NCBI RefSeq assembly: GCF_041435015.1 | Contig: NZ_CP107989.1 | Coordinates: 1,922,001 to 1,986,000 of the forward strand | Direction of reading: 5' to 3' | DNA: 64,000 nt | Source of the DNA: Streptomyces canus | GTDB lineage: Bacteria > Actinomycetota > Actinomycetes > Streptomycetales > Streptomycetaceae | Part shown: piece by piece, positions 4,989 through 26,970 of the stretch | Layout: each line of letters starts with the position of its first letter | Position numbering within the stretch: the stretch's first letter is position 1 | The notes under the pieces: generated by a model | Databases searched by the model: none | Told to the model about the DNA's origin: nothing | Seen by the model: only the letters and a program-made list of their open reading frames with translations | Translations under genes and position numbers: made by a program

Positions 4989-6026
4989 TCAGCACTTCTC
5001 CCGCAGCGAGTGCAGGTACGCGCTGGAGCGGCGGGCGAACGTGAAGGACTCGGTGGGCTGGTCGTGCTCGGCCTGCCAGTGGTGGGCCAGGCGCTCGCCC
5101 CGCAGCCGGGTCACGGCGGAGATGAACTTCTGGTAGTCGATGTCTCCGTCGCCGACGTCGGTCATGCGGTAGCCATAGGTGTTGGACGGATCGCTCACCC
5201 CGTCCTTGACGTGGAAGAGCGGGTAGCGGTGCGGCTGCCTGAGGACGTAGTTCAGGGGTTCGAACGGGGCGGGGGTGCCGTCGGGCCGGGTGGAGAAGCG
5301 GAACTGTCCCGAATACGCCCAGTAGATGTCCATCTCCAGGAACACCAGGTCGGGGTCGGTCTCCTTGAGCAGCACGTCGTAGAGACGGACCTTGGGGTTG
5401 TCGGTGGCGAAGGAGAACTCCTCGGAATGGTTGTGCTGGTAGAACTTCATGCCGCGTGCCTTCGCCGCGGCTCCGTAGGTGTTGAACTCCTCGGCGGCGC
5501 GCTTCCACGCGTCGACGGTCGAGCCGTAGCGGAACGGTCCCGAGGCGGTGCCGATGTGCTTGAGGCCGAGGGCCTGGGCGTCGTCCAGGACCTTGGTGAG
5601 GTTCTGGGCGAAGGTGTAGGCGTTCGGGTCGTCCGAGTAGTAGCCGACGTGGCTGCCGATCGGGTTCAGGCCGTGGTCGCGTGCCAGCCGCTTGAGCTGG
5701 GCGAGCGTGATGGGTCCGGCGGAGCCCTGGGTGTAGCCGGCGAACTCGACCTCGTCGTAGCCGTACTTCTCCAGTTCGGCGAAGACCGGGGCGAAGCCGA
5801 GCGTGGAGACCTTGTCGCGGAGGCTGTAGAGCTGGATGCCGAGGCGGCCGGGGGGCAGGACGGGGCGGCCGCGGCCGGACGTCTTGTCGGCCGTCTCGGC
5901 GGCGGTCGCCGGGGTCGCCGCGGCGCCCAGCAACGCGGCTGCGGTGGCGCCCGCGGCCACGCCGAGCATGCCTCGTCTGGTGAGGCGGTGGGTGAGTTCG
6001 GGGTCGGGCTGGGAGATGCGGCTCAT
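4989..6026 (-). CDS. Tat-exported sugar phosphate isomerase/epimerase-like TIM barrel
   Basis: A 345-residue protein with an N-terminal twin-arginine signal (LTRRGMLGVAAGATAAALLG, then cleavage near ATA-AE). The rest is an AP endonuclease 2/xylose-isomerase-like TIM barrel (residues ~55-340): LGIQLYSLR, YDEVEFAGY, KFYQHNHSEEF, FLEMDIYWAY, FHVKDG, VGDGDIDYQKF. The His/Glu/Asp residues in these blocks are the usual metal ligands of the fold. The ATG at 6026 follows GGAGTCCCAGGC. It is the last gene on the minus strand of the Ebo block, 101 bases downstream of the EboF-like gene, so it is probably co-transcribed though it may have its own promoter. Export to the cell surface distinguishes it from the two cytoplasmic TIM barrels of the cluster. 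Substrate unknown; an exported inositol- or sugar-derived compound is an inference. Confidence 0.88.
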   Translation of the reverse strand: MSRISQPDPELTHRLTRRGMLGVAAGATAAALLGAAATPATAAETADKTSGRGRPVLPPGRLGIQLYSLRDKVSTLGFAPVFAELEKYGYDEVEFAGYTQGSAGPITLAQLKRLARDHGLNPIGSHVGYYSDDPNAYTFAQNLTKVLDDAQALGLKHIGTASGPFRYGSTVDAWKRAAEEFNTYGAAAKARGMKFYQHNHSEEFSFATDNPKVRLYDVLLKETDPDLVFLEMDIYWAYSGQFRFSTRPDGTPAPFEPLNYVLRQPHRYPLFHVKDGVSDPSNTYGYRMTDVGDGDIDYQKFISAVTRLRGERLAHHWQAEHDQPTESFTFARRSSAYLHSLREKC

Positions 6027-6127
6027 GCCTGGGACTCCTCGGTGTCGGAGGGCGTTGTCAGTGGTGGGTGCTTCACTGGGGACCAGTCGGAAGAGACCGG
6101 TCGTCGGGTGCCGATCTTTCGGGCCGG

Positions 6128-7525
6128 TCAGCCGAGACCGGCGAGGTGGAGCAGGAGTGACTTCACCTCGGTGGCCGCGATGCGGTCGCCGAGGGTGCGG
6201 GGGGTGGAGCAGATGAGGAGCGGACCGTCGTCGTCGCTCTCGGGGAGGCGGCCGTGGCTGCCGCGAATAGGTGACGGGTCGAGGGGCACGACCGCCATGC
6301 GGTAGCGCAGGCCGAGCTTCTTGCGGGCCAGCGCGGTGGCCGCCTTGACCTTGACGTAGGGGTCGAGCGGGTCCATGAAGAGTTCGACCGGGTCGTAGCC
6401 GGGTTTGCGGTGGATCTCGACCAGCTGCGCGAAGTCGGGCGCGCGGTCGTCGTCGAGCCAGTAGTAGTACGTGAACCAGGCGTCCGGCTCCGCCACGGCG
6501 ACGAGTTCGCCGGAGCGCGGATGGTCGAGGTGGTGGGCCTTCTTGCCCTCGTCGTCGAGGAGTTGCTCGATGCCGGGCAGGCCGTCGAGGGCGGCGCGGG
6601 TGGCGTCCAGGTCCTCGGGGCGGCGCACATAGACATGGGCGATCTGGTGGTCGGCGACCGCGAAGGCGCGGGAGGCCATCGGGTCGAGGTACTCCATGCC
6701 GTCCTGTGTGTGCACCTCGAGGAGTCCGGCGCGGCGCAGGGCGCGGTTGATGTGGACGGGGCGGTCCGCGCGGGCGATGCCGTACTCGGAGAGCGCGACG
6801 ACGGTACGGCCTTCCGCGTGGGCGTCGTCCAGGAGCGGGGCCAGCGCCCTGTCCAGGTCGGCGGCGGCTTGCAGGGAGCGTGGGTCGTCGGGGCCGAAGC
6901 GCTGGAGGTCGTAGTCGAGGTGAGGGAGGTAGCAGAGCGTCAGGTCGGGATGGCGGGTGCCCATGATGTGGCGGGTCGCGTCGATGATCCACTGGCTGGA
7001 GACCAGGTCCGCGCCGGGGCCCCAGAAGTGGAAGAGGGGGAAGGTGCCGAGTTTCCGGGTGAGTTCGTCGTGCAGGTCCGGGGGCCGGGTGTAGCAGTCG
7101 GGTTCCTTGCGGCCGTCGGCGTAGTAGACCGGACGGGGGGTGACGGTGAAGTCGGTATCGGCGCCCATGGCGTACCACCAGCAGATGTTGGCGACCGTGT
7201 AGCCGGGGTGGGCGCGGCGGGCGGCGTCCCAGAGCTTGTCGCCGGCGACCAGACCGTTGTGCTGTCGCCACAGGAGTACGTCGCCGAGCTCGCGGAAGTA
7301 CCAGCCGTTGCCGACGATGCCGTGCTCCGACGGGTGGGTGCCGGTGAGGAAGGTGGACTGGGCGGCGCAGGTGACGGCGGGCAGCACAGTGCCGAGCGGG
7401 GCGTGGGATCCGGACTGGGCCAGGGACTTGAGGTGGGGCATGTGGTGGAGGAGACGGGGGGTGAGGCCTACGACGTCGAGGACGAGGAGAGGGGTGGGTC
7501 CCGCCTCGTGGGGCTGGTGGCTCAT
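6128..7525 (-). CDS. eboF: EboF-like alkaline phosphatase/nucleotide pyrophosphatase family hydrolase
   Basis: A 465-residue metal-dependent phosphodiesterase of the alkaline phosphatase superfamily. Two-metal motifs appear in order: LLVLDVVGLTPRLL (residues ~13-26, first metal Asp), STFLTGTHPSEHGIVG (Thr nucleophile), YLPHLDYDLQRFG (Asp/His ligands), LSEYGI, and DHQIAHVYV near residue 305. There is no signal peptide, so it is cytoplasmic. It overlaps the upstream EboE gene by four bases (ATGA), and upstream of that run EboB, EboA and EboC, which is the Ebo gene set; this family member is the one called EboF. Ebo operons are known from cyanobacteria, where they are needed for moving the scytonemin precursor to the periplasm, and from other bacteria. 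The exact reaction is not known; cleavage of a phosphodiester or pyrophosphate in a carrier-linked intermediate is an inference. Confidence 0.85.
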   Translation of the reverse strand: MSHQPHEAGPTPLLVLDVVGLTPRLLHHMPHLKSLAQSGSHAPLGTVLPAVTCAAQSTFLTGTHPSEHGIVGNGWYFRELGDVLLWRQHNGLVAGDKLWDAARRAHPGYTVANICWWYAMGADTDFTVTPRPVYYADGRKEPDCYTRPPDLHDELTRKLGTFPLFHFWGPGADLVSSQWIIDATRHIMGTRHPDLTLCYLPHLDYDLQRFGPDDPRSLQAAADLDRALAPLLDDAHAEGRTVVALSEYGIARADRPVHINRALRRAGLLEVHTQDGMEYLDPMASRAFAVADHQIAHVYVRRPEDLDATRAALDGLPGIEQLLDDEGKKAHHLDHPRSGELVAVAEPDAWFTYYYWLDDDRAPDFAQLVEIHRKPGYDPVELFMDPLDPYVKVKAATALARKKLGLRYRMAVVPLDPSPIRGSHGRLPESDDDGPLLICSTPRTLGDRIAATEVKSLLLHLAGLG

Positions 7526-8691
7526 GGCAGCTCCTTCAGGCCGAGGTCCGTCAGCAGGTCGCGCGCGAGGGTGAGTTCGGCGGCGATGCCGTCGGCGAGC
7601 TGGGTGCGCCCGCGGGGGCGCAGTTCGGGTGGGAGGGCCTGCCAGGTGTAGGTCTCGACCTCCAGGTGGCGGGTGAGCGGGTGTGGGCCGCCGACGAGCC
7701 GGGTCAGGGCGGAGGTGAGTACGGGGAGCGTGGAGGTGAGAGGTGCGGCGGGGGGAGCGTGCAGCGGGACGTGGAAGTGGGCGCGCCAGGGTGCCCCGTC
7801 GGGCAGGGCGTCGCCTGCCAGCGCCTCGCCGAGGTCGTCGGTGCCGCGGAGGCCTGCGGAAGTACCGGTGCGTGTCTGGTGCAGAAAGCGGGGTTCGTCG
7901 AAGGCGGCGAGTGCCTCGCGGACCTCGGGGAGATGGGGGTGTTCGGCGTGCAGGGCGGCTGAGAGCTGGGACTTGACGACGGGGACACGGGCCGCGGTGA
8001 GCGCGTCCAGGGCGGTCTGCGGGTTTTCGAAGGAGGTGGCGAGGTGGCAGGTGTCGACGCAGATGCCGATGCGTTCGTGGGCGATCGCGGTCAGCGGTGC
8101 GATGGCGTCGCCCGTGGTCTCGACGACGCAGCCGGGCTCGGGTTCGAGGCCGATGCGGATGGAGCGGCCGGTCAGCTCCTGGAGGGCGTCGAGGCGTTCG
8201 GCGAGGGTACGCAGGGCGGTGCGGGCCTTGTCGGCGCTCCCGTTGTCGTAGGCGGTGCGCCAGGCGAGCGGCAGGGTGGAGATGCTGCCCTCGGTGACGT
8301 CGTCGGGCAGGAGTCCGGTGAGGACGCGGGCCAGGGCGGTGGTGTGGTCGAGGCGTTCGGGGTCGGTCCAGTCCGGCTTGTAGACGCGGTGCTTTACCTC
8401 TTCGGCGCCGAAGCCCTCGTAGGGGAAGCCGTTGAGAGTGACGACTTCGAGGCCGCGGCGGTCGAGTTCGGTGCGCAGGTCGCGCAGCGCGGAGGGGTCG
8501 CTGACCAGGGCGTGGGCGGCGTCGCGGGCGAGCCACAGGCCGATGCCGAGGCGGTCGCGGCCCAGGCGGCGGCGGACGGGTTCGCAGTGGTCGCGGAGTT
8601 GCGCGAGGACGCCGTCGAGGGTCTCGGCGGGGTGGACGTTGGTGCAGTAGGCGAGGTGGACGGTGGTGCCGTCGGGGTGGCGGAAGCGCAT
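7522..8691 (-). CDS. eboE: EboE-like metabolite traffic TIM-barrel protein
   Basis: A 389-residue xylose-isomerase-like TIM barrel matching the EboE family in length and in the diagnostic N-terminus LAYCTNVHPAETLDGVLAQL. Further conserved pieces are VTLNGFPYEGF (~residue 85), KHRVYKPDWTDPERL, IRIGLEPEPGCVVETT (metal Glu), IGICVDTCHLAT (Asp/His ligands), VVKSQLSAAL and the C-terminal LEVETYTWQALP. No signal peptide. The start ATG lies three bases after the EboB stop; the stop overlaps the EboF start, so translation is coupled. The family is required with the other Ebo proteins for product traffic in cyanobacteria; the chemistry is undetermined. Family recognition is strong because of neighbours on both sides. 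Confidence 0.9.
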   Translation of the reverse strand: MRFRHPDGTTVHLAYCTNVHPAETLDGVLAQLRDHCEPVRRRLGRDRLGIGLWLARDAAHALVSDPSALRDLRTELDRRGLEVVTLNGFPYEGFGAEEVKHRVYKPDWTDPERLDHTTALARVLTGLLPDDVTEGSISTLPLAWRTAYDNGSADKARTALRTLAERLDALQELTGRSIRIGLEPEPGCVVETTGDAIAPLTAIAHERIGICVDTCHLATSFENPQTALDALTAARVPVVKSQLSAALHAEHPHLPEVREALAAFDEPRFLHQTRTGTSAGLRGTDDLGEALAGDALPDGAPWRAHFHVPLHAPPAAPLTSTLPVLTSALTRLVGGPHPLTRHLEVETYTWQALPPELRPRGRTQLADGIAAELTLARDLLTDLGLKELP

Positions 8692-8694
8692 GGC

Positions 8695-9543
8695 TCACGC
8701 CCCGCCGCGGAGGATGGAGTTGCCCTCGTGGGTGGCTTCGGTGGCCGCGATGTCGAGGGTGAGCCGGCCGCTGAGTCCGTAGAAGGCGACGGGGTTGCGC
8801 CACAGGACGCGGTCGACGTCGTCCTCGGTGAAGCCCTCGGCGAGCATGAGGTCCGCGACCTTGCGGGTCTTGAGGGGATCGCTGCGGCCCCAGTCGGCGG
8901 CGGAGTTCACCAGGACCTGTTCGGGGCCGTAGGAGCGCAGGATCGCGATCATCCGCTCCTCGTCCATCTTGGTGTCGGGATAGACGGAGAAGCCGAGCCA
9001 GCAGCCGCTGTCCTTGGCCTCCTTGACGGTGGTCTCGTTGAGGTGGTCGACCAGGACCCGGTCCGGCGCCAGGGCGGACTCGCGGACGACGTCGAGGGTG
9101 CGGCGCAGACCGGCGAGCTTGTCGCGGTGCGGGGTGTGGACCAGCGCGGGCAGCTCGTGGTCGGCGGCGAGCTGGAGCTGGGCGGCGAGGGCGGTGTCCT
9201 CGGCCGGGGTCATCGAGTCGTAGCCGATCTCACCGACGGCGACGACCTGGTCCTTGACGAGATACCGGGGCAGCTCGTCGAGGACGGGGACGCAGCGCGG
9301 GTCGTTGGCCTCCTTGGGGTTCAGGGCGAGGGTGCAGTGGTGGGCGATGCCGTACTGGGCGGCGCGGAAGGGCTCCCAGCCCAGCAGGGAGTCGAAGTAG
9401 TCGAGGAAGGAGGCGGGAGAGGTGCGGGGCTGGCCGAGCCAGAAGGACGGCTCGACGACGGCGCGGACGCCGGCGGTGTGCATGGCCTGGTAGTCGTCGG
9501 TGGTCCGTGACGTCATGTGGATGTGGGGGTCGAAGATGCGCAT
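8695..9543 (-). CDS. eboB: EboB-like TatD family metal-dependent hydrolase
   Basis: A 282-residue TIM-barrel hydrolase. It starts MRIFDPHIHM, where HxH are the first metal ligands. VGEIGYD (~residue 105) gives the bridging Glu, LVHTPHRDK a His, LVDHLNETT the next His, and NSAADWGRSDPLK the Asp that activates water. TatD enzymes are nucleases or amidohydrolases, but this subgroup is the one conserved in Ebo operons. It overlaps the upstream EboA gene by one base (TGATG) and is followed three bases later by EboE. No signal peptide. Substrate unknown; by context it acts on a metabolite, not on DNA (inference). Confidence 0.88.
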   Translation of the reverse strand: MRIFDPHIHMTSRTTDDYQAMHTAGVRAVVEPSFWLGQPRTSPASFLDYFDSLLGWEPFRAAQYGIAHHCTLALNPKEANDPRCVPVLDELPRYLVKDQVVAVGEIGYDSMTPAEDTALAAQLQLAADHELPALVHTPHRDKLAGLRRTLDVVRESALAPDRVLVDHLNETTVKEAKDSGCWLGFSVYPDTKMDEERMIAILRSYGPEQVLVNSAADWGRSDPLKTRKVADLMLAEGFTEDDVDRVLWRNPVAFYGLSGRLTLDIAATEATHEGNSILRGGA

Positions 9544-10277
9544 CAGGACTCCTTGCCGTGGGTGCCTTCCGCGCCGTTCGGGCCGTGGTCGGCGGCCGGC
9601 GCGGGTGGGGTGGCCGTGGGGTCGGTCAGGGTCAGGACGCGGTGCAGGTCCTCGGGCACAGGACGGCCCGCGGCGGTGCGTTCGGCGGCGTAGTCGCCGA
9701 GCATGCGGGCGAGTTCGGCGTCCGCGTGGGCCCGTCGGTCCAGGTCCGCCACCTCTGCGACGGGTACCCCGGTGAACAGGCACTTCAGAACGGCGTGGCG
9801 CCAGTGGTGGGTGTCGAGGTGGCGGGCGGCGTAGGGGCCGACGGCGGCGGCCAGGAGCCGGGTGTCGTTGGTGCGCAGGGCGTCCTCGACGAGCGGGATG
9901 GCTTCGGGGCCGGACACCAGATGGGGCAGGGCGTGCAGGACGGCGCGGCGTTCGGCGGCGGTGCCCTGGGCGTAGACCCGGGTCAGGGCGTCGGTGTCGG
10001 CGCGGGCCGCGTGCAGGATCAGGATGCGGACGGCGTCGGCGTGTTCGGGGCCGCAGCGGCGGCCGGCCTCGGCGAGGCGCAGCTCCCACACGGAGATGGG
10101 GCCGTGGGCGCCGGGGTGGGCGGCGGCTTCGTCGAGGGCCTGGTCGAGCCAGGTGCGGGCGGCTTCGCCGAGGCGTTCGGAGACGTGGCTGTGCAGGTCG
10201 TGCAGCGGGGTTCGGGCGAGGGTGGTGCCCTGGAGGTCCGCCGGGGAGGTTGCCTGGTGGGCATGGGAGTGGGTCAT
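9543..10277 (-). CDS. eboA: EboA domain protein
   Basis: A 244-residue soluble, mostly helical protein without enzyme motifs. The core (~residues 30-205) has the EboA pattern of helical repeats: WLDQALDEA near residue 44, RCGPEHADAVRILIL, AAERRAVLHALPHL, and LLAAAVGPYAARHLD followed by WRHAVLKCLFTGVPVAEVAD. The last of these is the best conserved part of the family. Ends are His- or Pro/Gly-rich and low complexity. The start overlaps the end of the upstream TIM-barrel gene by four bases and the stop overlaps the EboB start, so it is in the middle of a translationally coupled chain. The family has no known biochemical activity; a scaffold or adaptor role is inference. Confidence 0.88.
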   Translation of the reverse strand: MTHSHAHQATSPADLQGTTLARTPLHDLHSHVSERLGEAARTWLDQALDEAAAHPGAHGPISVWELRLAEAGRRCGPEHADAVRILILHAARADTDALTRVYAQGTAAERRAVLHALPHLVSGPEAIPLVEDALRTNDTRLLAAAVGPYAARHLDTHHWRHAVLKCLFTGVPVAEVADLDRRAHADAELARMLGDYAAERTAAGRPVPEDLHRVLTLTDPTATPPAPAADHGPNGAEGTHGKES

Positions 10278-11335
10278 GGGGTGCTTCCTTGTGAGAGCGC
10301 CACTGCCTGATGGAGGAACGGGAGGGAGAGTTCGGCGAAGTGGGGGCCCGCGTGGGAGTGGCGGGGCAGTTCGACGACCGTCAGGCCCTGGTAGCCGGTG
10401 TCGGCCAGGGCGGCCAGGACGGGCGGGAAGTCGATGTCGCCGTCACCGAAGGGGAGGTGCTCGTGGACGCCCCGGCGCATGTCCTCGATCTGGACGTGGC
10501 GCAGCCAGGGGCCCGCGGCGCGCACGCACTCGGCGGGCGACAGGGGTTCGAGGCACTGGCAGTGGCCGATGTCGAGGGTCAGTCCGAGGGCCGGCGGGTC
10601 GCCGAGGGTGGTGCGGAGGTGGTGGAAGTCGGCGAGGGTGGCGAGGAGGTGGCCCGGTTCGGGCTCGATGGCGAGGGGGATGCCGGCGGTGGTGGCGGTG
10701 TCGAGGACGGGGGTGAGGGTCTCGGCCAGCCGTTTCCACGCCGTGTCCGGGTCCGTGCCCGGCGGGGTGACACCGCTGAAGCAGTGCACGGCGTGCGCAC
10801 CGAGGTCGGCGGCGACCTGGACGGCCCGGACCAGCAGGTCGACGCGGCGGGCGCGGTCGTCCGGGTCGGGGTCGAGCAGCGAGGGGCCGTGTTTGCGGCG
10901 TGGGTCGAGCACATAGCGGGCGCCCGTCTCGATGGTGACCGTCAGTCCGAGCGCGTCCAGGCGGTGCGCGAGGCGGCGGGTGCGGGCGGCCAGGTCGGAG
11001 GCGAGGGGGTCCAGGTGCATGTGGTCGAGCGTCAGACCGACGCCGTCGTAGCCGAGGTCGGCGAGCAGGGTGAGGGCGTCGTCGAGACGGAGGTCGGCGA
11101 GACCGTTGGTGCCGTAGCCGAAGCGGAGGGGGGTGGGGCTGGGGGTTGGGGCGGGGCGGGGTGAAGCCAGGGGGGTGGTCATGGTGCCGTCGGGGCCAGG
11201 AGCGGGCCGGGGCGGACCAACTGGGGCAGTCGTGTCGCCGCCGGGGCCGGCGGAGGGCCGAGGCCGAGCAATGGGGCCGGTCATGTCGTCGCGGGGGGCC
11301 GGAATGAGTGGGCGCGGAGCGAGGGGGTCGGTCAT
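10274..11335 (-). CDS. Sugar phosphate isomerase/epimerase (TIM barrel) with repeated Pro-rich N-terminus
   Basis: 353 residues. Residues ~70-345 form a xylose-isomerase-like TIM barrel: LRFGYGTNGLADL, YDGVGLTLDH, VTIETGARYVLDP, IPLAIEPEPGHLL (metal Glu), LGLTLDIGHCQCL (Asp/His), HVQIEDMRRGVHEHLPFG, VVELPRHSH. The first 68 residues are four tandem copies of a 17-residue Pro/Gly-rich unit beginning MTxP or TTxP, encoded by 51-bp repeats. ATG codons open units 1, 2 and 4 (11335, 11284, 11182), so the true start could be any of these; the barrel needs only the last. It overlaps the UbiA gene upstream and EboA downstream by four bases each. This gene is extra compared with the minimal Ebo set and resembles inositol- or xylose-pathway isomerases, fitting a cyclitol or sugar substrate. 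Confidence 0.85.
   Translation of the reverse strand: MTDPLAPRPLIPAPRDDMTGPIARPRPSAGPGGDTTAPVGPPRPAPGPDGTMTTPLASPRPAPTPSPTPLRFGYGTNGLADLRLDDALTLLADLGYDGVGLTLDHMHLDPLASDLAARTRRLAHRLDALGLTVTIETGARYVLDPRRKHGPSLLDPDPDDRARRVDLLVRAVQVAADLGAHAVHCFSGVTPPGTDPDTAWKRLAETLTPVLDTATTAGIPLAIEPEPGHLLATLADFHHLRTTLGDPPALGLTLDIGHCQCLEPLSPAECVRAAGPWLRHVQIEDMRRGVHEHLPFGDGDIDFPPVLAALADTGYQGLTVVELPRHSHAGPHFAELSLPFLHQAVALSQGSTP
11132..11335. repeat. 51-bp in-frame tandem repeat (four units)
   Basis: Four consecutive 51-bp units in the N-terminal coding region of the TIM-barrel gene, each giving a 17-residue P/R/G-rich segment such as MTGPIARPRPSAGPGGD. Unit length is exact; sequence between units is diverged. Confidence 0.7.
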
Positions 11336-12657
11336 GTGACGCTCACCCTCCTCGCGAAGCGTCCTGCCAGGGGGGCGAGGGCGGTGGTGAGCAGGGCCGT
11401 GACGGTCGCGCCCTGCGCGCCCGAGCGGGCGGTGAGGGCGGCCTGGAGGGGGATCGTGGCTCGGATGCCGGCGGTGACGGCTCGTTGGGTGACCGGGGGT
11501 GAGGGGTTGAGGGTGGCGTGGAGGTAAGGGCGGGCGGTAGTGGCCGCGTAGGCGGCGGCGAGGGCGAGGCGCAGGGCCGCGTGTGCGTCGAGGCGGTCGG
11601 GGCTGGGGCTGGGCGGGGGGACGTGATCGCCGGTCTGCCGCGGGGGGTGTGACAGCCGGGACATGGCCGCAGCGGCCAGGTCCGCCAGCCGGGGCGTTCC
11701 GGTGCCGCGTCGTCCACCGGCGATCCGGTCCGTTGGGAGCGAACGCTGTCGGGTCACCGTCCGCGTCAGTGCGGCCGTCGCGGCGAGCGCTGCGAAGGAG
11801 GCCAGGGGTGAGCCGCCCTGGGCCTCACGGCGGGACACGGTGGTGACGGCGAGAGTGTGGACGCCGAGCAGGGCGGCGGACGGCAGGGCCTGTCGGATGC
11901 CGTCCAGGGCGCCGGGAACGGCTGACGTCCCCAAGGCCACCCGAGGCTCGTCGGCGACGGCCGTGGCCCACGCTCGGCACGCACCGACCTTCCGGCCCAC
12001 GCCGTCCACGCCGGCCCTCTCGGGCACCCGGCCCACCACGCCGACCCCCGCCGTCGCCCCCGCGCCGAGCAGCAGGTCCAGCCCTCGTGCCGTCGCCATG
12101 GCGAGCGGTCCTGCCGGGGTGTTCTTCAGGACGAGGTCGTACGCCCAGACCGTGGCCGCGAGCGGGACAGCGACCGTGAGGGCGGGGCGGCCCGCGCAGG
12201 CCGCCAGGGAGAGGCCCGCGCCGGTGAGAGCGCAGGCCGCGCCGAGGGCCGCCGCAGGGCGGATACGACCGGAAGGGAGGGGGCGGTGGGGGCGTTCCAC
12301 AGCGTCCACGTCGCGGTCGGCCCAGTCGTTGAGGGCCATGCCGGCCTCGTAGAGACAGAGGGAGGACGCGATCGCGAGGAGAGTCCGCCCGGTGGGGCGT
12401 GCGGAGACTGCCGCCGCTCCGGCGAAGGCGTCGCCGGGGACGGTGAACAGGGCGGGCAGGCGCAGGAGTTCGGCCCAGGCGCGGTCGCGGTCGGGGTCGC
12501 GGTCGCGGTCGCGGTCGGGGCGACTGGTGTGCGTACGGCTCGGTGGTGCGGTCAGTGCCGAAGGCCCCTTGAGAAGGGGCGTGGTGGGGGTCGCCGTCGT
12601 CCCGCCCGCGCCCTTGGACAGGCGCTCCGATGCCGCGGCTCTGCTCGCCCTCACCAC
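11332..12657 (-). CDS. eboC: EboC-like UbiA family prenyltransferase
   Basis: A 441-residue polytopic membrane protein. The first Asp-rich prenyl-diphosphate motif is NDWADRDVDAVERPHRPLPSG split over residues ~110-131 (NDWADRD, then ERPHRPLPSG). The loop YDLVLKNTP with the following AMATARGLDLLLG occupies the place of the second UbiA motif. Hydrophobic segments flank both. UbiA enzymes attach an isoprenoid to an acceptor in the membrane; EboC is the family member in Ebo operons. The product is longer than typical (~290-330) because of a ~60-residue N-terminal tail with RDRDRDPDRDR from a 6-bp DNA repeat and a C-terminal extension. It starts at GTG 12657, overlapping the stop of the inositol-phosphate-synthase-like gene by seven bases. 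A prenylated cyclitol as product is an attractive inference. Confidence 0.85.
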   Translation of the reverse strand: MVRASRAAASERLSKGAGGTTATPTTPLLKGPSALTAPPSRTHTSRPDRDRDRDPDRDRAWAELLRLPALFTVPGDAFAGAAAVSARPTGRTLLAIASSLCLYEAGMALNDWADRDVDAVERPHRPLPSGRIRPAAALGAACALTGAGLSLAACAGRPALTVAVPLAATVWAYDLVLKNTPAGPLAMATARGLDLLLGAGATAGVGVVGRVPERAGVDGVGRKVGACRAWATAVADEPRVALGTSAVPGALDGIRQALPSAALLGVHTLAVTTVSRREAQGGSPLASFAALAATAALTRTVTRQRSLPTDRIAGGRRGTGTPRLADLAAAAMSRLSHPPRQTGDHVPPPSPSPDRLDAHAALRLALAAAYAATTARPYLHATLNPSPPVTQRAVTAGIRATIPLQAALTARSGAQGATVTALLTTALAPLAGRFARRVSVT

Positions 12658-13859
12658 TGCTCCCCCGAACCATCGGCCGGCTCGCCGACGGGGCCGCCAC
12701 GGTCGACCGAACTTGAGGCGCCGCCGCCATCGCCGCAGTCGCCCGCGCTGCTCAGCCGCTCCGCGAACCCCACCAGCCGCGCGTACTGCTCCCCCAGTCC
12801 CGCGGGCCCTTGCCCCACCGGGTCCTTGAAGTAGAAGCCCAGTTCGCTCAGTGGGCCGGACAGCCCCCTCTCGTGCGCGCGGGCGGCCAGACGGGCCAGG
12901 TCGAGTACGAGAGGTGCGGCAAGGGAGGAGTCGCAGCCCTGCCAGGTGGTCTGAAGGACCATGCGGGTGCCGAGGAAGCCCTCGAAGGCGATGTGGTCCC
13001 AGGCGGTCTTCCAGTCGCCGAGGGCGGGGACGTCGTCGATGTGGACCTCGCCCTCCGGGGTGGTGCCGAGGGTGTCGGCCAGGACGCGCTCCTTACCGGC
13101 GTTCTTCGCCGCGGCGGCCGACGGGTCGGCGAGGGAGGCTCCGTCGCCGCCGCCGAGGAGATTGGTGCCGGACCAGGCCCGGACCGTCAGGGCGCGTTGG
13201 GTGAACATCGGGCCCAGGACGGACCGGAGCAGGGTCTGCCCGGTCTTGCCGTCACGGCCCGCGAACGGCAGGCCCGAGGACTCGGCCTGCCGCGTCAGCG
13301 ACGGGTGGTGCAGTCCGGTCGAGGGCGTGAAGTTCACATACGCGCAGCCCGCGCGCAGGGCCGCCGCCGCGTACAGGGAGCTCGGAGGCAGGGCGTCGCC
13401 GGTGGGCGCGGGCTCGGTGGAGGCCACGTTGACCACTACCGCGCGCGTCAGCCGGCATCGTCCTACGAAGGACCGTATGTCCGCGGCGAAGGCGGCGATC
13501 AGGTCGTCCTCGGACCTCGTGTCGCCGGGGAGGGGGCCGCCCGGCCTGATCTCCCGTTCCGCGGCGGCGAGTTCGGCGCTCACCGCTGTCGGCAGGCCGT
13601 GGGGCAGGACGCCGCCCGCCGCCAGGGTCTCCGCCCGTTTGGGCAGGGGGCAGTCCAGCGTGTCGTGGCCGCCGAAGACCAGGGAGGACAGGGCCGGCAG
13701 GCCGCTTTCGGTGAAGGGTGGTGTCTCGGTGAGCAGGCCCGTCGGCGGGTGCAGGCCCGCGGTCATGGCGGCGCAGCCCGCGACGACCGTCGTGGCGACG
13801 GAACCGCGGGCCCCGATCAGCCAGACGCCGACGCGCGGTACGGAATCGGACGCGGACAT
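12651..13859 (-). CDS. Inositol-3-phosphate synthase-like protein (second type, Ebo-linked)
   Basis: A 402-residue protein of the myo-inositol-1-phosphate synthase family, which converts glucose 6-phosphate to inositol phosphate using bound NAD. Visible landmarks are the dinucleotide loop IGARGSVATT (residues ~12-21), VNVASTEP, NFTPSTG, the catalytic-core Lys in GRDGKTGQTLL (~218), NLLGGGDGASLADP and DHIAFEGFLGTRM. The C-terminal region after residue ~370 is low complexity (GDGGG, SGEQW). The ATG at 13859 follows AAGGAGG. It precedes and overlaps the UbiA/EboC gene, so it opens the Ebo transcript; the 109 bases upstream can hold a promoter. Classical Ebo operons have a dehydroquinate-synthase-like cyclase (EboD), absent here; this enzyme is also an NAD-dependent sugar-phosphate cyclase and may replace it (inference). 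Confidence 0.85.
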   Translation of the reverse strand: MSASDSVPRVGVWLIGARGSVATTVVAGCAAMTAGLHPPTGLLTETPPFTESGLPALSSLVFGGHDTLDCPLPKRAETLAAGGVLPHGLPTAVSAELAAAEREIRPGGPLPGDTRSEDDLIAAFAADIRSFVGRCRLTRAVVVNVASTEPAPTGDALPPSSLYAAAALRAGCAYVNFTPSTGLHHPSLTRQAESSGLPFAGRDGKTGQTLLRSVLGPMFTQRALTVRAWSGTNLLGGGDGASLADPSAAAAKNAGKERVLADTLGTTPEGEVHIDDVPALGDWKTAWDHIAFEGFLGTRMVLQTTWQGCDSSLAAPLVLDLARLAARAHERGLSGPLSELGFYFKDPVGQGPAGLGEQYARLVGFAERLSSAGDCGDGGGASSSVDRGGPVGEPADGSGEQW

Positions 13860-13968
13860 GGCAGCCTCCTTGCCGAGCACATGGGTACGCAGACTCTGCG
13901 ACGAAGGGATGAACGACGACGGGGCGAAGACGGCGGGCGGGAGTCCGGCGTCCCCCGCCCGCCGCCGC

Positions 13969-15312
13969 TCAATCGCCCTTGCCGAGCGGTTCCTTGATCC
14001 GGATGTCGCGGAACGACACCTGGTCGTCGGCTCCGTGGTTCTGGATGCCGACATGCCCGTCACGCAGGCTTCGGGCCGGATCGGTGTTGGTGAAATCGTT
14101 GATCTTCACGCCGTTGAGCCAGACGCGGAGGCGTTCGCCCTCCACGCGGATCTCGTACGTGTTCCACTCCCCCGGCGGGTTCAGCGCACGGTCGCGCTTC
14201 TTCAGGTCGGCGGAGCGGAAGCCGTAGACGGACCCTGTGGTCTTCTCGGGTACGTCGGTGGCGTCGATCTGGATCTCGTAGCCGTTGTCGACGGCGGACC
14301 AGGGGTCGTCCGAGGGCGGGAAGCCCACGAACACGCCCGAGTTGTCGTCACCGGAGGCGCCGGCCATCTTCCAGTCGAGCTTCAGGGAGTAGGACCCGAA
14401 GCTCTGACCGGCGTACCAGAGCATCCCCATACCGCCGGACGAGGTGAGTGTGCCGTCGTCGGACCGGGTGAAGGAGCCCGGACCGGCCTGTTTCCAGTCG
14501 TCCAGTGACGCGGCCGTGCCGTCGAAGAGCGGACGGTAGCCGTTCTCCGGCCGGCAGTCGGCCGGGGCGTCGCCGATCGCATACCGGATGCCGCCCAGCA
14601 CATGGCCGAGGAACGCCGGGTCCGCGTACGACTCCTTCGTGTGGCCGAGGCCGGTGTAGAAGGCACGGCCGCCCTGGTAGTCCTGGCACCAGGCGATCGG
14701 ATGGTCGCCGTTCATCGTGCCGCCGGTGTACGACGACTCGTCGAGTGAGGCGAGGACGTGGGCCCGATCACGGGGATTGGAGCGGTAGTTGTACCACTCG
14801 TCGGTCCGGTTCCATGTCGGAGGCAGCCCAGATGTGGACGGGTGGGCCCGGTCCTCGGCCACCACCGTGGCCGGCTGGATCGCCGGGTGCGACTGGAAGT
14901 AGGCGCCGACGAGGCCACCGTAGAACGCCCAGTCGTACTCGGTGTCGGCGGCCGCGTGGATACCGACGTATCCGCCGCCCTGCCGGATGTAGCCCTCGAA
15001 GGCCCGCTGTTGGGCGGGGTCGAGGACGTCTCCGGTGGTGGAGAGGAACACGACCGCGTCGTACCGGCGCAGGTTTTTCGGGGTGAACGCGTTCGCGTCC
15101 TCGGTGGCGTCGACCGTGAAGCCGCCGGTCTCACCGAGCTGCTTCACCGCCGCGACACCGTCGGGGATGGAGTCGTGCCGGAAGCCGGCCGTCTTGGAGA
15201 AGACCAGCACCCGTTCGGCGTCCGCGGAGTGCGACGCGGCGGGTTCGGACACGCAGCCGAGGAGCAGCGCGGCTCCCACAACCGCCGTCGTCCATCGTCC
15301 AGTTGTGTTCAT
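13969..15312 (-). CDS. Lipoprotein with ThuA domain and 3-keto-disaccharide hydrolase (DUF1080) domain
   Basis: 447 residues. The N-terminus is a lipoprotein signal (TTAVVGAALLLGC, Cys ~20). Residues ~35-250 form a ThuA-like class I amidotransferase-type fold: LVFSKTAGFRHDSI, YDAVVFLSTTGDVLD, GGGYVGIHAAADTEYDW, RGGRAFYTGLGHTKESY-like block (GGRAFYTGLGH). Residues ~265-440 are a concanavalin-like DUF1080 domain: YRPLFDGTAASLDDWK, LKLDWKMA, NGYEIQIDAT, GEWNTYEIRV, DGHVGIQNHG, FRDIRIKE. DUF1080 proteins include hydrolases of 3-keto-glycosides, and ThuA proteins belong to 3-keto-trehalose-type pathways. It lies 13 bases downstream of the glucose/sorbosone-dehydrogenase-like gene and is likely in one transcript with it. 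It acts at the outer face of the membrane on oxidised sugars (inference). Confidence 0.88.
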   Translation of the reverse strand: MNTTGRWTTAVVGAALLLGCVSEPAASHSADAERVLVFSKTAGFRHDSIPDGVAAVKQLGETGGFTVDATEDANAFTPKNLRRYDAVVFLSTTGDVLDPAQQRAFEGYIRQGGGYVGIHAAADTEYDWAFYGGLVGAYFQSHPAIQPATVVAEDRAHPSTSGLPPTWNRTDEWYNYRSNPRDRAHVLASLDESSYTGGTMNGDHPIAWCQDYQGGRAFYTGLGHTKESYADPAFLGHVLGGIRYAIGDAPADCRPENGYRPLFDGTAASLDDWKQAGPGSFTRSDDGTLTSSGGMGMLWYAGQSFGSYSLKLDWKMAGASGDDNSGVFVGFPPSDDPWSAVDNGYEIQIDATDVPEKTTGSVYGFRSADLKKRDRALNPPGEWNTYEIRVEGERLRVWLNGVKINDFTNTDPARSLRDGHVGIQNHGADDQVSFRDIRIKEPLGKGD

Positions 15313-15325
15313 GCGACCCCTCCTC

Positions 15326-17833
15326 TCAGCCGGTCGTGAAGGTGAAGTCGTCCACGTCGAACAGGGCGCCGGTGCCGCTCCCCTTGAAGACCAGGTAGAG
15401 GGTGGTGGTGCCCCTGGGCGCGCGGGACAGGTTGGCGGTGACGTCCTGGAAGGTCTCCCAGCCGCCGGTCACCGGTACGGTCGCCTTGCCGAGCAGGGTG
15501 CCGGTCGCGGATCCCGCGCGGATCTCGAGGGTGCCGCCGGTGCCGCCCGAGGAGACGCGTGCGGTCAGCGACTTGGCGTTGCTCAGGACGTACGGCGTGA
15601 AGGCGATCCAGTCGCCGTTGTTGATGTCGCCGACCGTGTTGCCGCCGTGTGCCGTGTCCTTGGCGATGACCGAGACGCCTGAGCCGGTGCCGAAGTGCTC
15701 GGCCTGGCGGTGCCTGGGCTGCAGGACGCTCTGGTCGTGGGTGGTCAGCGGGGCCTGGCCGCCACCGCCGTTGTCGGTGTACTCGGCGTCCATCACGCCG
15801 AAGATGTTGGCGTCCTCGTCGTGACCGCCGTCGGCGCTGGTCTGGATGGTGCCGGTGCAGCCGTTGGCGGAGGTGACGGGGTGGCCGTGGCTGTCGTGGC
15901 CGAGGACGAAGGTGACCTTGACTTTGGTGCAGTCGATGGACCGGCCGTCCTCGGGGTCACTCACGCGCACCTTGAACGGGATCGCGTCACCGAAGCTGAA
16001 CAGCCGGCCGTCCTGCGGGAGTTCGAGCGTCACCTTGGGCGCGGTGTTCCCGACGACGATCTGCACGCTGGCGCTGCCGGTGCGGCCGCTCGGGTCCTTC
16101 GCGGTCAGGGTCGCGGTGTAGGTGCCGTTCTTCTTGTACTTGTGTGTCGGGTTCGCCGCCGTGGACGTGCCGCCGTCGCCGAAGTCCCAGCTGTACGTGA
16201 GGGCGTCGCCGTCCTGGTCACTGGTGCCCTCGGAGGAGAACCGCACCCTCAGCGGCGCCTGCCCGGATGTACGGTCGGCCGCTGCCTGGGCGACCGGGGA
16301 GTGGCCGTCGGTGGCGTTCTCGATGCGGTACAGGGCGGAGTTCTCGTCGCCGCCGAACCAGGAGACGCCGTAGTCGAGGACGTACAGCGCGCCGTCGGGA
16401 CCGAAGGCCATGTCCATCACCTGGGTGCCGGTCCACGGGATGTCGTTGATCGACTGGACGGTGCCGTTGTCGTCGCTGGTAATGCGCTTGATCCAGCGGC
16501 GGCCGAACTCCCCGGCGAAGAAGTCGCCGTCGTAGGCCTCGGGGAACTTCACGGGTGAGTCGAGCGCGGGGTCGTAGTGGTAGACCGGGCCGCCCATCGG
16601 GGACTCGGAGCCGGTGCCGAACTCGGGTACCGATCCGTTGTCGTAGGGGATCCAGGCGGCCTGCGCCGGGGGAAGGTCGGTGAGGCCGGTGTTGTGCGGG
16701 GAGTTGTTCTTCGGCGCGGCGCAGTCGAAGGAGGCGCCCGAGGTGCCGGTCGCGAAGTCGTAGTCCACGTAGGCGTCGTTGTCGCCCGTGCAGTACGGCC
16801 AGCCGAAGTTGCCCGGGCCGGTCACGCGCGCGAACTCGACCTGGCCGGCGGGGCCTCGGGCCGGGTCGGCGGCGCCGGCGTCGGGGCCGTAGTCACCGAC
16901 GTACACGATCCCCGTCTGCTTGTCGACGCTGAAGCGGAACGGGTTGCGGAAGCCCATGGCGTAGATCTCGGGCCGGGTCCTTTCCGTGCCGGGCGCGAAG
17001 AGGTTGCCGTCGGGGATGGCGTAGGAGCCGTCGGCGTTGACCTTGATGCGCAGGATCTTGCCGCGCAGGTCGTTGGTGTTGCCGGCGGTGCGCTGGGCGT
17101 CGAAGGCCGGGTTGCGGTTCGCGCGTTCGTCGATGGGCGTGAACCCGTCGGACTGGAAGGGGTTGGAGTCGTCGCCCGTCGACAGGTAGAGGTTGCCGGC
17201 CGCGTCGAAGTCGATGTCGCCGCCGACGTGGCAGCAGATGCCGCGGGTGGCGGGGATGTCGATGATCTTCGTCTCGCTGGCGGCGTCGAGGGTGCCGTCG
17301 GTGTTCAGGACGAACCGGGAGAGCCGGTTGACGCCGTCGAAGGGCGCGAAGTCGGCCGCGGTGCCGGTCTCGGGGGCGTCGCCCGCCGGGGTGTTCAACG
17401 GGGGTGCGTAGTAAAGGTAGATGAAGCGGTTGGTGGTGAACTGCGGATCCACGCCGACGCCTTGGAGGCCTTCCTCGTCGTGGGAGTAGACGTCGAGCTT
17501 GCCGGCCAGCCGGGTGGTACCGGCCGCGTCGGTGATGCGGAGCTCGCCGTCACGGGAGGTGTGCAGGACCGAGCGGTCCGGGAGCACGGCGAGCGACATG
17601 GGCTCGCCGACCTCCGGCTCACCCTTGGCGAGGGTGACCTGCTGGAAGTCCTCGGCGGCGGCCTGAGCGGCTCCCTGCTCGGCGACGGATGCGCCTGCCT
17701 GGGGAGCGGCGAGGGTGAGGGAGGCGCCGGCCAGCAGGAAGCCGGTGAGCAGTGCCGCCGCTCTGCGCCAGGGGGCGCGTCGTCTGTGGGTCTCGTTTCT
17801 GTCGGTAGGGATGGTGCGGTCTTTCCCGTGCAC
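15326..17833 (-). CDS. Secreted glucose/sorbosone dehydrogenase-like (PQQ-type) enzyme with PKD domain
   Basis: 835 residues. A signal peptide (RRAAALLTGFLLAGASLTLA) is followed by a six-bladed beta-propeller of the GSDH family (residues ~55-475) with EEGLQGVGVDP, GICCHVGGDIDFD, DLRGKILRIK, GFRNPFRFSVD, GNFGWPYCTG and DMAFGPDGALYVLDYG. A PKD domain comes next (YSWDFGDGGTS, NGTYTATLTAKD; ~500-585), then a short beta domain with VKVTFVLGHDSHGH, and a C-terminal CBM-like domain ending DVDDFTFTTG. The GTG at 17833 is preceded by GGAGGCATCCG. Family members oxidise sugars with PQQ or are sugar-binding without it; no PQQ genes are in the window. It sits between the TIM-barrel isomerase and ThuA-DUF1080 genes, so extracellular oxidation of a glycoside is the likely step. 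Confidence 0.87.
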   Translation of the reverse strand: MHGKDRTIPTDRNETHRRRAPWRRAAALLTGFLLAGASLTLAAPQAGASVAEQGAAQAAAEDFQQVTLAKGEPEVGEPMSLAVLPDRSVLHTSRDGELRITDAAGTTRLAGKLDVYSHDEEGLQGVGVDPQFTTNRFIYLYYAPPLNTPAGDAPETGTAADFAPFDGVNRLSRFVLNTDGTLDAASETKIIDIPATRGICCHVGGDIDFDAAGNLYLSTGDDSNPFQSDGFTPIDERANRNPAFDAQRTAGNTNDLRGKILRIKVNADGSYAIPDGNLFAPGTERTRPEIYAMGFRNPFRFSVDKQTGIVYVGDYGPDAGAADPARGPAGQVEFARVTGPGNFGWPYCTGDNDAYVDYDFATGTSGASFDCAAPKNNSPHNTGLTDLPPAQAAWIPYDNGSVPEFGTGSESPMGGPVYHYDPALDSPVKFPEAYDGDFFAGEFGRRWIKRITSDDNGTVQSINDIPWTGTQVMDMAFGPDGALYVLDYGVSWFGGDENSALYRIENATDGHSPVAQAAADRTSGQAPLRVRFSSEGTSDQDGDALTYSWDFGDGGTSTAANPTHKYKKNGTYTATLTAKDPSGRTGSASVQIVVGNTAPKVTLELPQDGRLFSFGDAIPFKVRVSDPEDGRSIDCTKVKVTFVLGHDSHGHPVTSANGCTGTIQTSADGGHDEDANIFGVMDAEYTDNGGGGQAPLTTHDQSVLQPRHRQAEHFGTGSGVSVIAKDTAHGGNTVGDINNGDWIAFTPYVLSNAKSLTARVSSGGTGGTLEIRAGSATGTLLGKATVPVTGGWETFQDVTANLSRAPRGTTTLYLVFKGSGTGALFDVDDFTFTTG

Positions 17834-17916: not shown

Positions 17917-18921
17917 TTACTCGTTGCCGCCGAACGCCGCGTCGAACGAGGCCGACGGCGGCTCGAAGTCGTACGCCTTGAGTCGGTTCAGTGCCTCCGG
18001 TGCGCCCTGGAGCCGGTCCATGCCGGCGTCCTCCCACTCGACCGAGATGGGGCCCTGGTAGTCGATGGAGCGCAGCATGCGGAAGACGTCCTCCCAGGGG
18101 ACGTCGCCGTGCCCGGCGGAGACGAAGTCCCAGCCGCGGCGCGGGTCGCCCCAGGGAAGGTGGGAGCCGAGGCGGCCGTTGCGGCCGTCCAGGCGTTTGC
18201 GGGCTTCCTTGCAGTCGACGTGGTAGATCCGGTCGCGGAAGTCCCACAGGAAGTTGACCGGGTCGAGGTCCTGCCACACGAAGTGGGAGGGGTCGAAGTT
18301 GAGGCCGAAGGCCGCCCGCCCGCCGACTGCCTCCACCGCGCGCTGTGTTGTCCAGTAGTCGTAGGCGATCTCGCTCGGGTGGACCTCGTGGGCGAACCGC
18401 ACGCCCTCCGCGTCGAAGACGTCGAGGATCGGGTTCCAGCGCTCGGCGAAGTCCTCGTAGCCGCGGTCGATCATCGACTCGGGGGCGGGCGGGAACATGG
18501 CGACCAGGTGCCAGATGGCGGAGCCGGTGAAGCCGATGACGGTGTCGACGCCGAAGGCGCGTGCGGCGCGCGCGGTGTCCTTCATACGGTTCGCGGCCCG
18601 CTGCCGGACCCCTTCAGGGTCGCCGTCGGCCCACACCTCGCCCGGCAGGATGGCCTGATGGCGTTCGTCGATGATGGCGTCGCAGACGGCCTGGCCGACC
18701 AGGTGGTTGGAGATCGCCCAGCACTTGAGGCCGTACTTGTCGAGCAGCGCGTGCCGGGAGTCCAGATACGACGGGTCCGCGAGCGCCTTGTCGACTTCGA
18801 AGTGGTCTCCCCAGCAGGCGAGTTCGAGTCCGTCGTAGCCGAAGTCGCGGGCGAGGCGGCAGACCTCTTCGAGGGGGAGGTCGGCCCACTGGCCGGTGAA
18901 GAGCGTGAACTGACGCGGCAT
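17917..18921 (-). CDS. Sugar phosphate isomerase/epimerase (TIM barrel)
   Basis: A 334-residue cytoplasmic TIM barrel: [77 protein letters not shown] (metal Glu/His), [13 protein letters not shown] (Asp/His), [31 protein letters not shown]. This subgroup is regularly paired with Gfo/Idh/MocA oxidoreductases in sugar, inositol and 3-keto-glycoside catabolic loci. The ATG follows GAGGAGG. It is 14 bases downstream of the oxidoreductase gene on the same strand, implying one operon. Substrate unknown. Confidence 0.88.
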
Positions 18922-18935
18922 CTTTGGCAGCCTCC

Positions 18936-20138
18936 TCAGACGGCTATCGGGGTGTAGACGGAGTTCTTCTCGGCGCTCTCCTCCACGGCCGCGAGCACCC
19001 GCTGGACCTGGAGCCCGTCGGCGAAGGAGGGTTCGGGGCGGCGGCCCTCGGCGATCGCGTGGACGAGGTCGCGGGCCTGGTGGACGAAGGTGTGCTCGTA
19101 GCCGAGGCCGTGGCCGGGCGGCCACCAGGCGTCCAGGTAGGGGTGGTCGGGCTCAGTGACGAGGATGCGGCGGAAACCGGCGTGCGCCGCGGGTTCCGTG
19201 CCGTCGTGGTAGGAGAGTTCGTTGAGGCGTTCCAGGTCGAAGGCCAACGAACCGCGCTCGCCGTTGAGTTCGATGCGCAGGGAGTTCTTGCGGCCGGTGG
19301 CGTACCGGGTGGCCTCGAAGGAAGCGAGGGCGCCGGAGGTGAAGCGGCCGGTGAACAGGGCCGCGTCGTCCACGGTGACCTGACCGGTGCCGGTCCCGGA
19401 GACGGCGGACAGGCCTTTGACGGCGCCGCCGGTCAGCGGGCGCTCCCGTACGAAGGTCTCGGTCAACGCGGAGACTCCGGCCAGTTGCTCTCCCGCCAGG
19501 TACTGGGCGAGGTCGACGATGTGCGCGCCCAGGTCGCCGAGCGAGCCCGATCCCGCCTGCTCCCGGCGCAGCCGCCAGGTCAGGGGGAACTCGGGGTCCA
19601 CGAGCCAGTCCTGAAGGTAGGTCACCCGCAGGTGCCGGAGCGTGCCGAGCCGTCCATCGGCCACCATCCGGCGGGCCAGCGCGGTGGCGGGCACCCGGCG
19701 ATAGTTGAAGCCGACCATCGCGAACTGACCCCGGTCGAAGGCCTCTTCGGCGGCCCGGGTCATCACCAGGGCCTCCTCGACGGTGTTGGCGAGCGGCTTC
19801 TCGCACAGCACGTGCTTGCCCGCGGCGAGCGCGGCGACGGCGATCTCGGCGTGGCTGTCGCCGGGGGTGCAGATGTCGACGAGATCGACGTCGTCCCGCT
19901 CGATCAGGGCCCGCCAGTCGGTCTCGGCGGCCGCCCAGCCGTGCCGGTCGGCTGCCCGGCGCACGGCGTCCGCGTCCCGTCCGCAGATCGCGGCGAGCAC
20001 CGGGCGGCGGGGCAGGTCGAAGACGCGTCCGACGGTCCGCCAGCCCTGGGAGTGGGCGGCGCCCATGAAGGCGTAGCCGACCATGCCGACCCGGAGCGGC
20101 GGCACCTCGGCCTCCTCTGACTGCTGCGGCTGTGCCAT
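18936..20138 (-). CDS. Gfo/Idh/MocA family oxidoreductase
   Basis: A 400-residue NAD(P)-dependent dehydrogenase. The Rossmann domain (residues ~14-140) has [15 protein letters not shown], the [11 protein letters not shown] strand end and the hallmark [17 protein letters not shown] (EKP). The C-terminal substrate domain has [31 protein letters not shown] (catalytic Asp/His, GDLGxH) and GYEHTFVHQ. Such enzymes oxidise or epimerise sugars and cyclitols. The ATG at 20138 follows AGGAGGACATCGCGC. It is downstream of the ABC importer and overlaps neither neighbour; gap to the substrate-binding protein gene is 158 bases. Likely acts on the imported sugar. Confidence 0.9.
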
Positions 20139-20296
20139 GCGCGATGTCCTCCTCGTCGTCGTGGCGCGGTGGGGGGTGCAGCCCGGTCCGTCGACGAACC
20201 GGGCTCCTGGGACCAGCCGTTCGGACCGGCCGGGCCGGGGCGCACCGCTGCTCGCGGCCGGCCCGGTCGGTAAGTCGGGCCCCGGCTCGGGACGCC

Positions 20297-21349: not shown

Positions 21350-21366
21350 GGCGGTGAACCCTTTCC

Positions 21367-23903: not shown

Positions 23904-24018
23904 GAGGTCCCCTTGGCGGGCGTGCGGGCCGGTTTCAGGGCAGGGCGAAGCAGGAGCGCTGTGCTGGAGGGGCATGTCAGAGGGTGCCGTGGCGGACAGT
24001 GCCGTACCGAGAAGTGGC

Positions 24019-26914: not shown

Positions 26915-26970
26915 CGCGGTCCCCCTCCTCGGCGGGCGGACACCCCCGGACACCCCTACCAGTTGCCTTT

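Follow-up and report, generated by a model that had tools for sequence, protein, structure and literature searches.

An ebo-type operon of Streptomyces canus with an inositol-phosphate-synthase-like cyclase in the place of EboD

We analysed a stretch of 64,000 nucleotides (the window) from Streptomyces canus (NCBI RefSeq assembly GCF_041435015.1, contig NZ_CP107989.1, positions 1,922,001 to 1,986,000 of the forward strand). Between window positions 13859 and 6128 its minus strand carries seven consecutive genes related to the ebo cluster, followed by an eighth, accessory gene. In transcript order these are:

12651..13859, minus strand: IPSl, an archaeal-type myo-inositol-phosphate-synthase-like cyclase in the place of EboD (PF07994, PF01658)
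11332..12657, minus strand: SCO3242-family UbiA prenyltransferase in the EboC position (NF045897, 370 bits, cut-off 260; PF01040, 62.1 against a gathering threshold of 34.2 bits)
10274..11335, minus strand: TIM2, a xylose-isomerase-like TIM barrel (PF01261, 155 bits)
9543..10277, minus strand: EboA, a predicted all-helical HEAT/ARM-like solenoid (EboA_domain NF035938, 167 bits, cut-off 50)
8695..9543, minus strand: EboB, a TatD-like metallo-hydrolase (PF01026)
7522..8691, minus strand: EboE, a TIM barrel 'metabolite traffic protein' (NF035939, 429 bits, cut-off 250)
6128..7525, minus strand: EboF, type I phosphodiesterase / alkaline-phosphatase-like (PF01663, 241 bits)
4989..6026, minus strand: accessory TIM barrel with a twin-arginine translocation (Tat) signal (PF01261; N-terminal TRRGMLG, then a hydrophobic stretch)

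Family searches confirmed all eight genes in the order given by a first-pass annotation of the same DNA, together with its view of the locus as an ebo-type system: EboA and EboE pass their models, and EboB and EboF are present in the same cluster. The junctions between the seven genes are overlapping or very short (-7, -4, -4, -1, +3 and -4 bp in transcript order), so translational coupling across the operon is likely. The Tat-signal TIM barrel gene begins 101 bp downstream of EboF and a ThuA-type gene ends 109 bp upstream of the IPSl start; these two neighbours are therefore less tightly tied to the operon.

EboD had been reported as missing, and the searches found none among the genes at the locus, the best match in the genome reaching 135 bits. 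Because EboD is absent, the operon is a variant of the ebo kind, apart from the canonical ebo operon. It has in common with the eboA-F cluster of Nostoc punctiforme, Bacteroidota and eustigmatophyte plastids, as described in parts of PMC5133447 and PMC6282210, the proteins EboA, EboB, EboE and EboF, a UbiA enzyme and a sugar-phosphate cyclase. The cyclase here has the fold of myo-inositol-phosphate synthase (MIPS), whereas theirs is EboD, with the dehydroquinate (DHQ) synthase fold. The present operon also adds TIM2, its UbiA enzyme belongs to the SCO3242 sister family, and its order is IPSl-C-TIM2-A-B-E-F (single letters denote Ebo proteins). Single genes are already named by NCBI; replacement of EboD as a rule was not found in the published literature searched. 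Passages of the paper that named ebo (PMC5133447) propose, on the basis of EboC and EboD, that the product is an isoprenoid cyclitol, report some genomes without eboD and mention, as 'data not shown', a fusion of actinobacterial EboA with a xylose-isomerase-like domain, probably corresponding to the TIM2-EboA pair seen here. The word 'inositol' is absent from its main text.

Distribution of IPSl and EboD

A total of 396 genomes of the same phylum were searched with an EboE and with an IPSl profile. EboE exceeded its cut-off in 18; a nineteenth genome (G467) gave a split match below it. IPSl matches of 558 to 618 bits were obtained in 17 genomes, with a sharp gap to the next match at 328 bits. 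All 17 are EboE genomes, the listed starts of the two genes lying about 4.3 to 5.2 kb apart, and no IPSl was found in any of the 396 without EboE. The eighteenth EboE genome, G566 (locus L046), has a DHQ-synthase-like EboD and no IPSl.

Twenty actinobacterial loci were examined, drawn from 14 of the 19 genomes in which EboE matched (leaving the window's own, G004, G008, G018 and G467) and from four genomes picked by SCO3242; genes in these relatives were called with a simple GC-frame caller. IPSl is present in 17 of the 20 and the complete order IPSl-C-TIM2-A-B-E-F in 16, while EboD matches only in L046. The sample from other phyla (Verrucomicrobiota, Bacteroidota, Planctomycetota and proteobacteria) came from a contig scan with EboB and consists of the best 80 of 586 confirmed stretches, ranked by similarity to EboB of the EboD type. 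Among these best 80 of 586, EboD occurs in 55 and IPSl in none, and a whole-genome search of 49 of the genomes in this sample yielded no IPSl-type protein. EboD and IPSl were never found in the same locus, either among the 20 actinobacterial loci or among the best 80 of 586. Such co-occurrence, like a failure of EboA or EboE to match, had been named beforehand as evidence contrary to the first-pass annotation; neither appeared. A search for EboD in 14 IPSl-type genomes found it in none: the best matches (110 to 136 bits, with no match in G506; Larkinella EboD scores 425 bits) look like ordinary DHQ synthases.

The order was surveyed separately in 197 genomes, with IPSl counted at E 1e-100. The SCO3242 family exceeds its cut-off in 123 and gives a strong match in 126 among the matches listed. 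IPSl was found in 127 genomes, 125 of which have a strong SCO3242 match (125 of the 126 among the matches listed); G089, a fragmented assembly, has IPSl and a partial SCO3242. Of the 138 IPSl matches, 128 have a listed SCO3242 gene no more than 6 kb away; among the remaining ten, the one in G040 has a low score (342 bits) and probably represents a different MIPS.

We regard a consistent replacement of EboD by IPSl in Actinobacteria as almost certain. The replacement is one-for-one across the genomes sampled, not a coincidence of one genome, and the early proposal that another NAD-dependent sugar-phosphate cyclase stands in EboD's place is borne out well beyond this locus. A FastTree analysis of concatenated EboB, EboE and EboF from 69 loci, rooted at the midpoint, separates 19 loci of the IPSl kind from 50 others (support for the split, 0.79). 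The EboD-type actinobacterium falls among the 50, and two loci, L044 and L061, are nested within the IPSl side. The simplest account from these sequences would be one replacement with later loss of IPSl in extra copies; because of the midpoint rooting, the direction of the replacement and the root are not proven.

The cyclase, the prenyltransferase and the other Ebo proteins

IPSl contains NAD_binding_5 and Inos-1-P_synth domains and has the MIPS fold, being closest in fold to a proven MIPS; it is 37% identical to the Archaeoglobus fulgidus enzyme (1u1i) and 30% to BT1526 (7nwr). In a hand-numbered alignment, K274, K278, K306 and K367 of A. fulgidus MIPS correspond to K252, K256, K284 and K345 of IPSl, and D225, D261, D332 and N255 to D203, D239, D310 and N233. 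All eight catalytic-type residues are invariant in the 16 IPSl aligned (of 18 available: the window and 15 of 17 from the examined loci, with L049 and L060 left out). We take the A. fulgidus lysines and aspartates to have catalytic roles; K278, K367 and N255 are named as mutants in structure records. Eight further positions, beside the catalytic residues, are near-fixed in IPSl with a residue that none of 17 other MIPS shares, the Ino1 of this genome being one of the 17. They include G231 (S in 16 of the 17) and G237 (N in all 17), the latter aligned with D259 of A. fulgidus MIPS; the yeast MIPS residue at this place presumably touches the substrate. Another two of the eight, T285 and W306, are common to IPSl and the proven A. 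fulgidus enzyme. IPSl thus shares with the archaeal and bacterial MIPS the fold, the NAD domain and the catalytic-type residues examined, and differs from them in its ebo operon setting, the invariant G231 and G237 and a separate long branch in the MIPS tree. The genome's true mycothiol Ino1 (735 bits) is a different protein, which makes IPSl an additional paralogue; from its sequence it is very probably an active cyclase. There is also a second MIPS group in the phylum, with 316 to 342 bits to the IPSl profile (G040:C1:104527, G271, G248 and similar places); seven of its eight cases are in genomes without EboE over the cut-off or away from the IPSl place.

The label 'EboC' given initially to the prenyltransferase holds for the UbiA family and for the position in the operon. 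It does not hold at the level of the NCBI EboC equivalog, to which the protein scores 113 bits (cut-off 250); it passes instead another NCBI equivalog, 'SCO3242 family prenyltransferase'. Locus L046, of the EboD type, has an EboC that likewise remains under the EboC cut-off (98 bits), and the EboC model is therefore narrow. Within the motif NDxxDxxxD, residues N110, D111, D114 and D118 are invariant in all 15 UbiA enzymes aligned (from 15 of the 21 loci, counting the window). The second Asp-rich UbiA motif was not seen, by eye, at the place where we assume it to lie; a T-x-x-S-R-x-E-type sequence is found there. The L046 EboC is also without it and keeps NDxxDxxxD. The UbiA-297/EboC prenyltransferases described in parts of PMC9235831 are similar in being EboC-type enzymes of an ebo cluster with the first Asp motif kept; they differ in their origin (Maribacter, Zobellia and Algoriphagus), in ebo genes listed with EboD and in the aromatic acceptors assayed.

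Three of the 20 actinobacterial loci (L048, L043 and L053) lie immediately beside a polyprenyl synthase gene, in three different arrangements; at L048 that gene overlaps eboF by 4 bp. The 12 genomes searched contain between 1 and 12 such genes, and three loci in 20, judged informally, looks like more than chance. At L046 a gene of the flavin mononucleotide (FMN)-dependent dehydrogenase family (13121-14161) overlaps the end of EboF by 4 bp; this family includes type 2 isopentenyl diphosphate isomerase, an identity that would fit an isoprenoid pathway.

The label EboA stands for the domain and not for the EboA_family model (67 bits, cut-off 320). The AlphaFold model of the protein (pLDDT, the predicted local distance difference test, 89.8) matches only generic solenoids, and the predicted helical HEAT/ARM solenoid is in line with the scaffold idea put forward for EboA in part of PMC6282210. 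EboB and EboF homologues are also present at L046, whose EboB shares 40-44% identity with the other 11 actinobacterial EboB in the alignment (12 of 21 loci in all). In 17 of the 20 loci TIM2 stands between EboC and EboA; it is a core member of the actinobacterial ebo type and has conserved E/D/Q/E residues resembling what we take to be a metal site.

A possible pathway and its alternatives

The gene content, the exclusive replacement in the sampled genomes, the MIPS fold with its catalytic-type residues and the UbiA membership are computed results. The best explanation, which as a whole we consider probable, is an actinobacterial ebo type that combines a non-homologous cyclase swap with a prenyl-cyclitol pathway. 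EboD would have been replaced, probably in one event, by the NAD-dependent IPSl, and TIM2 added. From glucose 6-phosphate, or a closely related hexose phosphate, IPSl would form a six-carbon cyclitol phosphate, which TIM2, and possibly EboE and EboB, would adjust; EboF would remove or split the phosphate ester; the SCO3242/EboC UbiA enzyme would join a prenyl chain to the cyclitol in the membrane, with EboA as a helical scaffold. The prenyl-cyclitol might be a membrane-bound product or a carrier connected with metabolite export. A prenylated cyclitol, already proposed in the first-pass annotation, fits the pairing of UbiA enzyme and cyclase and the three adjoining polyprenyl synthase genes; chemically it is still something we infer, and we think it slightly more likely than not. 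The export or carrier role is suggested tentatively: movement across the membrane would follow by analogy with one cyanobacterial system, N. punctiforme, for which parts of PMC6282210 report that deletion of ebo abolishes scytonemin and propose precursor export.

The isoprenoid-cyclitol hypothesis previously rested on similarities of EboD and EboC. The non-homologous replacement of EboD in 17 of 18 EboE genomes is independent evidence of a need for a cyclitol: if EboD is exchanged for another sugar-phosphate cyclase, a cyclitol is what the ebo system needs. Our best reading is that the swap independently supports the published hypothesis, the identity of the product being what we infer. If true, a prenyl-linked cyclitol would add a new class to the membrane lipids or lipid carriers of bacteria. 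It is conceivable, though we would not yet favour it, that all ebo systems need such a lipid or carrier, with the cyclitol head group made by either of two unrelated enzymes, of EboD fold (from seven-carbon sugars) or MIPS fold (from six-carbon sugars), and the actinobacterial IPSl cyclitol being non-inositol or re-tuned. The question of the ebo product, standing since 2016, becomes testable in genetically tractable Streptomyces, where the first enzyme, IPSl, belongs to a type with a well-understood assay.

How far IPSl departs from ordinary MIPS bears on two alternatives. It might be an ordinary additional MIPS, supplying inositol pools or serving a regulon for sugar/inositol catabolism, and placed with ebo for regulatory convenience. 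The unchanged catalytic-type residues, the fold, the NCBI name of its relatives (inositol-3-phosphate synthase) and a bordering cluster with sugar ATP-binding cassette (ABC) transporter, MocA, ROK, glucose/sorbosone dehydrogenase (GSDH) and ThuA genes, mostly recurring in rearranged form at L048, would all agree with this. We nevertheless find it improbable: the genome already has its true Ino1, IPSl never occurs without EboE in the 396 genomes and occupies EboD's place, it has near-fixed differences beside the catalytic residues, and the whole sugar neighbourhood is found, within the stretch covered, only at L048 among ten examined loci outside the window's genus. The same near-fixed positions, G231 and G237 among them, speak for a new substrate (another hexose or a heptose phosphate) and a non-inositol cyclitol mimicking the EboD product. 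This has a precedent for an altered product within the MIPS superfamily in the paralogue Ari2 (6k96), by its record name a five-membered-cyclitol-phosphate synthase. Given that the catalytic-type residues are unchanged and that T285 and W306 also occur in the A. fulgidus enzyme, we rate it a serious possibility short of an even one; it is compatible with the prenyl-cyclitol pathway.

The operon could also make a prenylated cyclitol that is itself a natural product, a small metabolite, secreted or located in the membrane, and unrelated to transport of another compound. Some Streptomyces loci outside type 1 (our term for those with ThuA and GSDH genes upstream of IPSl) lie near biosynthetic genes, namely non-ribosomal peptide synthetase (NRPS) genes at L061 and L054 and a cytochrome P450 at L044; part of PMC3610822 lists SCO3242 and SCO3243 among the genes of the CDA (calcium-dependent antibiotic) cluster, and the compound proposed in PMC5133447 is itself of isoprenoid-cyclitol kind. 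However, the core spans several families of Actinobacteria and, in its EboD form, several phyla, which is wider than usual for a specialised product, and the N. punctiforme mutants are tied to export of a precursor. We consider this explanation rather unlikely.

Several points weigh against the combined swap and prenyl-cyclitol account. It is a computational account. In the MIPS tree a single IPSl clade has a support of only 0.66, the EboC-like proteins did not show a second Asp-rich UbiA motif, and the EboC relatives assayed, according to parts of PMC9235831, farnesylated quinolines, not cyclitols. In the order survey, G135 has SCO3242 and no IPSl at all, G088 has IPSl and gives no strong SCO3242 match, and 13 of 141 SCO3242 places have no IPSl nearby (12 in genomes with IPSl elsewhere); L044 (G006) and L061 (G185) are SCO3242 places without IPSl. 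Among the best 80 of 586 loci from other phyla, 25 are without EboD; 16 of these are shorter than 20 kb and nine are full-length, showing that EboD is not always beside EboB. The ranking of this sample by EboD-type EboB could miss IPSl-type loci outside the phylum. In type 1, the window's own, the operon also lies beside a cluster for the uptake and oxidation of sugars, a possible sign of a catabolic role.

Accessory genes and neighbourhood

Upstream of the operon the window contains:

13969..15312, minus strand: gene with ThuA and 3-keto-disaccharide hydrolase domains (PF06283, PF06439)
15326..17815, minus strand: GSDH with PKD and CBM6 domains (PF07995, PF18911, PF03422)
17917..25200, minus strand: sugar-type neighbourhood (TIM barrel, GFO/IDH/MocA oxidoreductase, sugar binding protein, permease named by position and relatives, ABC ATPase, ROK regulator)

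The exported TIM barrel had been counted as part of the pathway; its place in the core is not supported. It follows EboF in all seven type-1 Streptomyces loci (window included), twice as proteins only 35-36% identical. At the 14 remaining loci of the 21 it was not seen after EboF; one of them, L047, stops within EboF. The gene is part of a Streptomyces sub-type, outside the core. GSDH and ThuA recur rearranged at L048, and GSDH also at L051 and L053; G246 has a single GSDH homologue at E 1e-30, located at the ebo locus. GSDH homologues are away from the ebo locus in G456 and G292, and none was found in G020 or G343. The GSDH linkage may be a tie to sugar oxidation or old synteny. At L048 homologues of the ABC, permease, binding protein, MocA and TIM3 genes recur as well.

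Outside type 1, L061 (an extra ebo copy) is near NRPS condensation and AMP-binding modules and a BTAD regulator, and L054 (no second ebo locus was found in its genome) is near an NRPS piece and a 4'-phosphopantetheinyl transferase. At L044, which has no IPSl, the P450 gene (6476-7663) follows EboF directly and overlaps it by 4 bp; a gene at 13911-15245, which lies upstream of the prenyltransferase, gives an amine oxidase match just below the Pfam cut-off. In the window itself, two fdhD copies flank the ebo/sugar region (4049-4876 and 30348-31175, plus strand), 26 kb apart in the same orientation and 99.0% identical over 828 bp, as do two GntR-FCD regulator regions (1405-2088 and 26246-26926, minus strand) that are 91% identical. 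These two flanking pairs suggest segmental duplication or recombination around the cluster.

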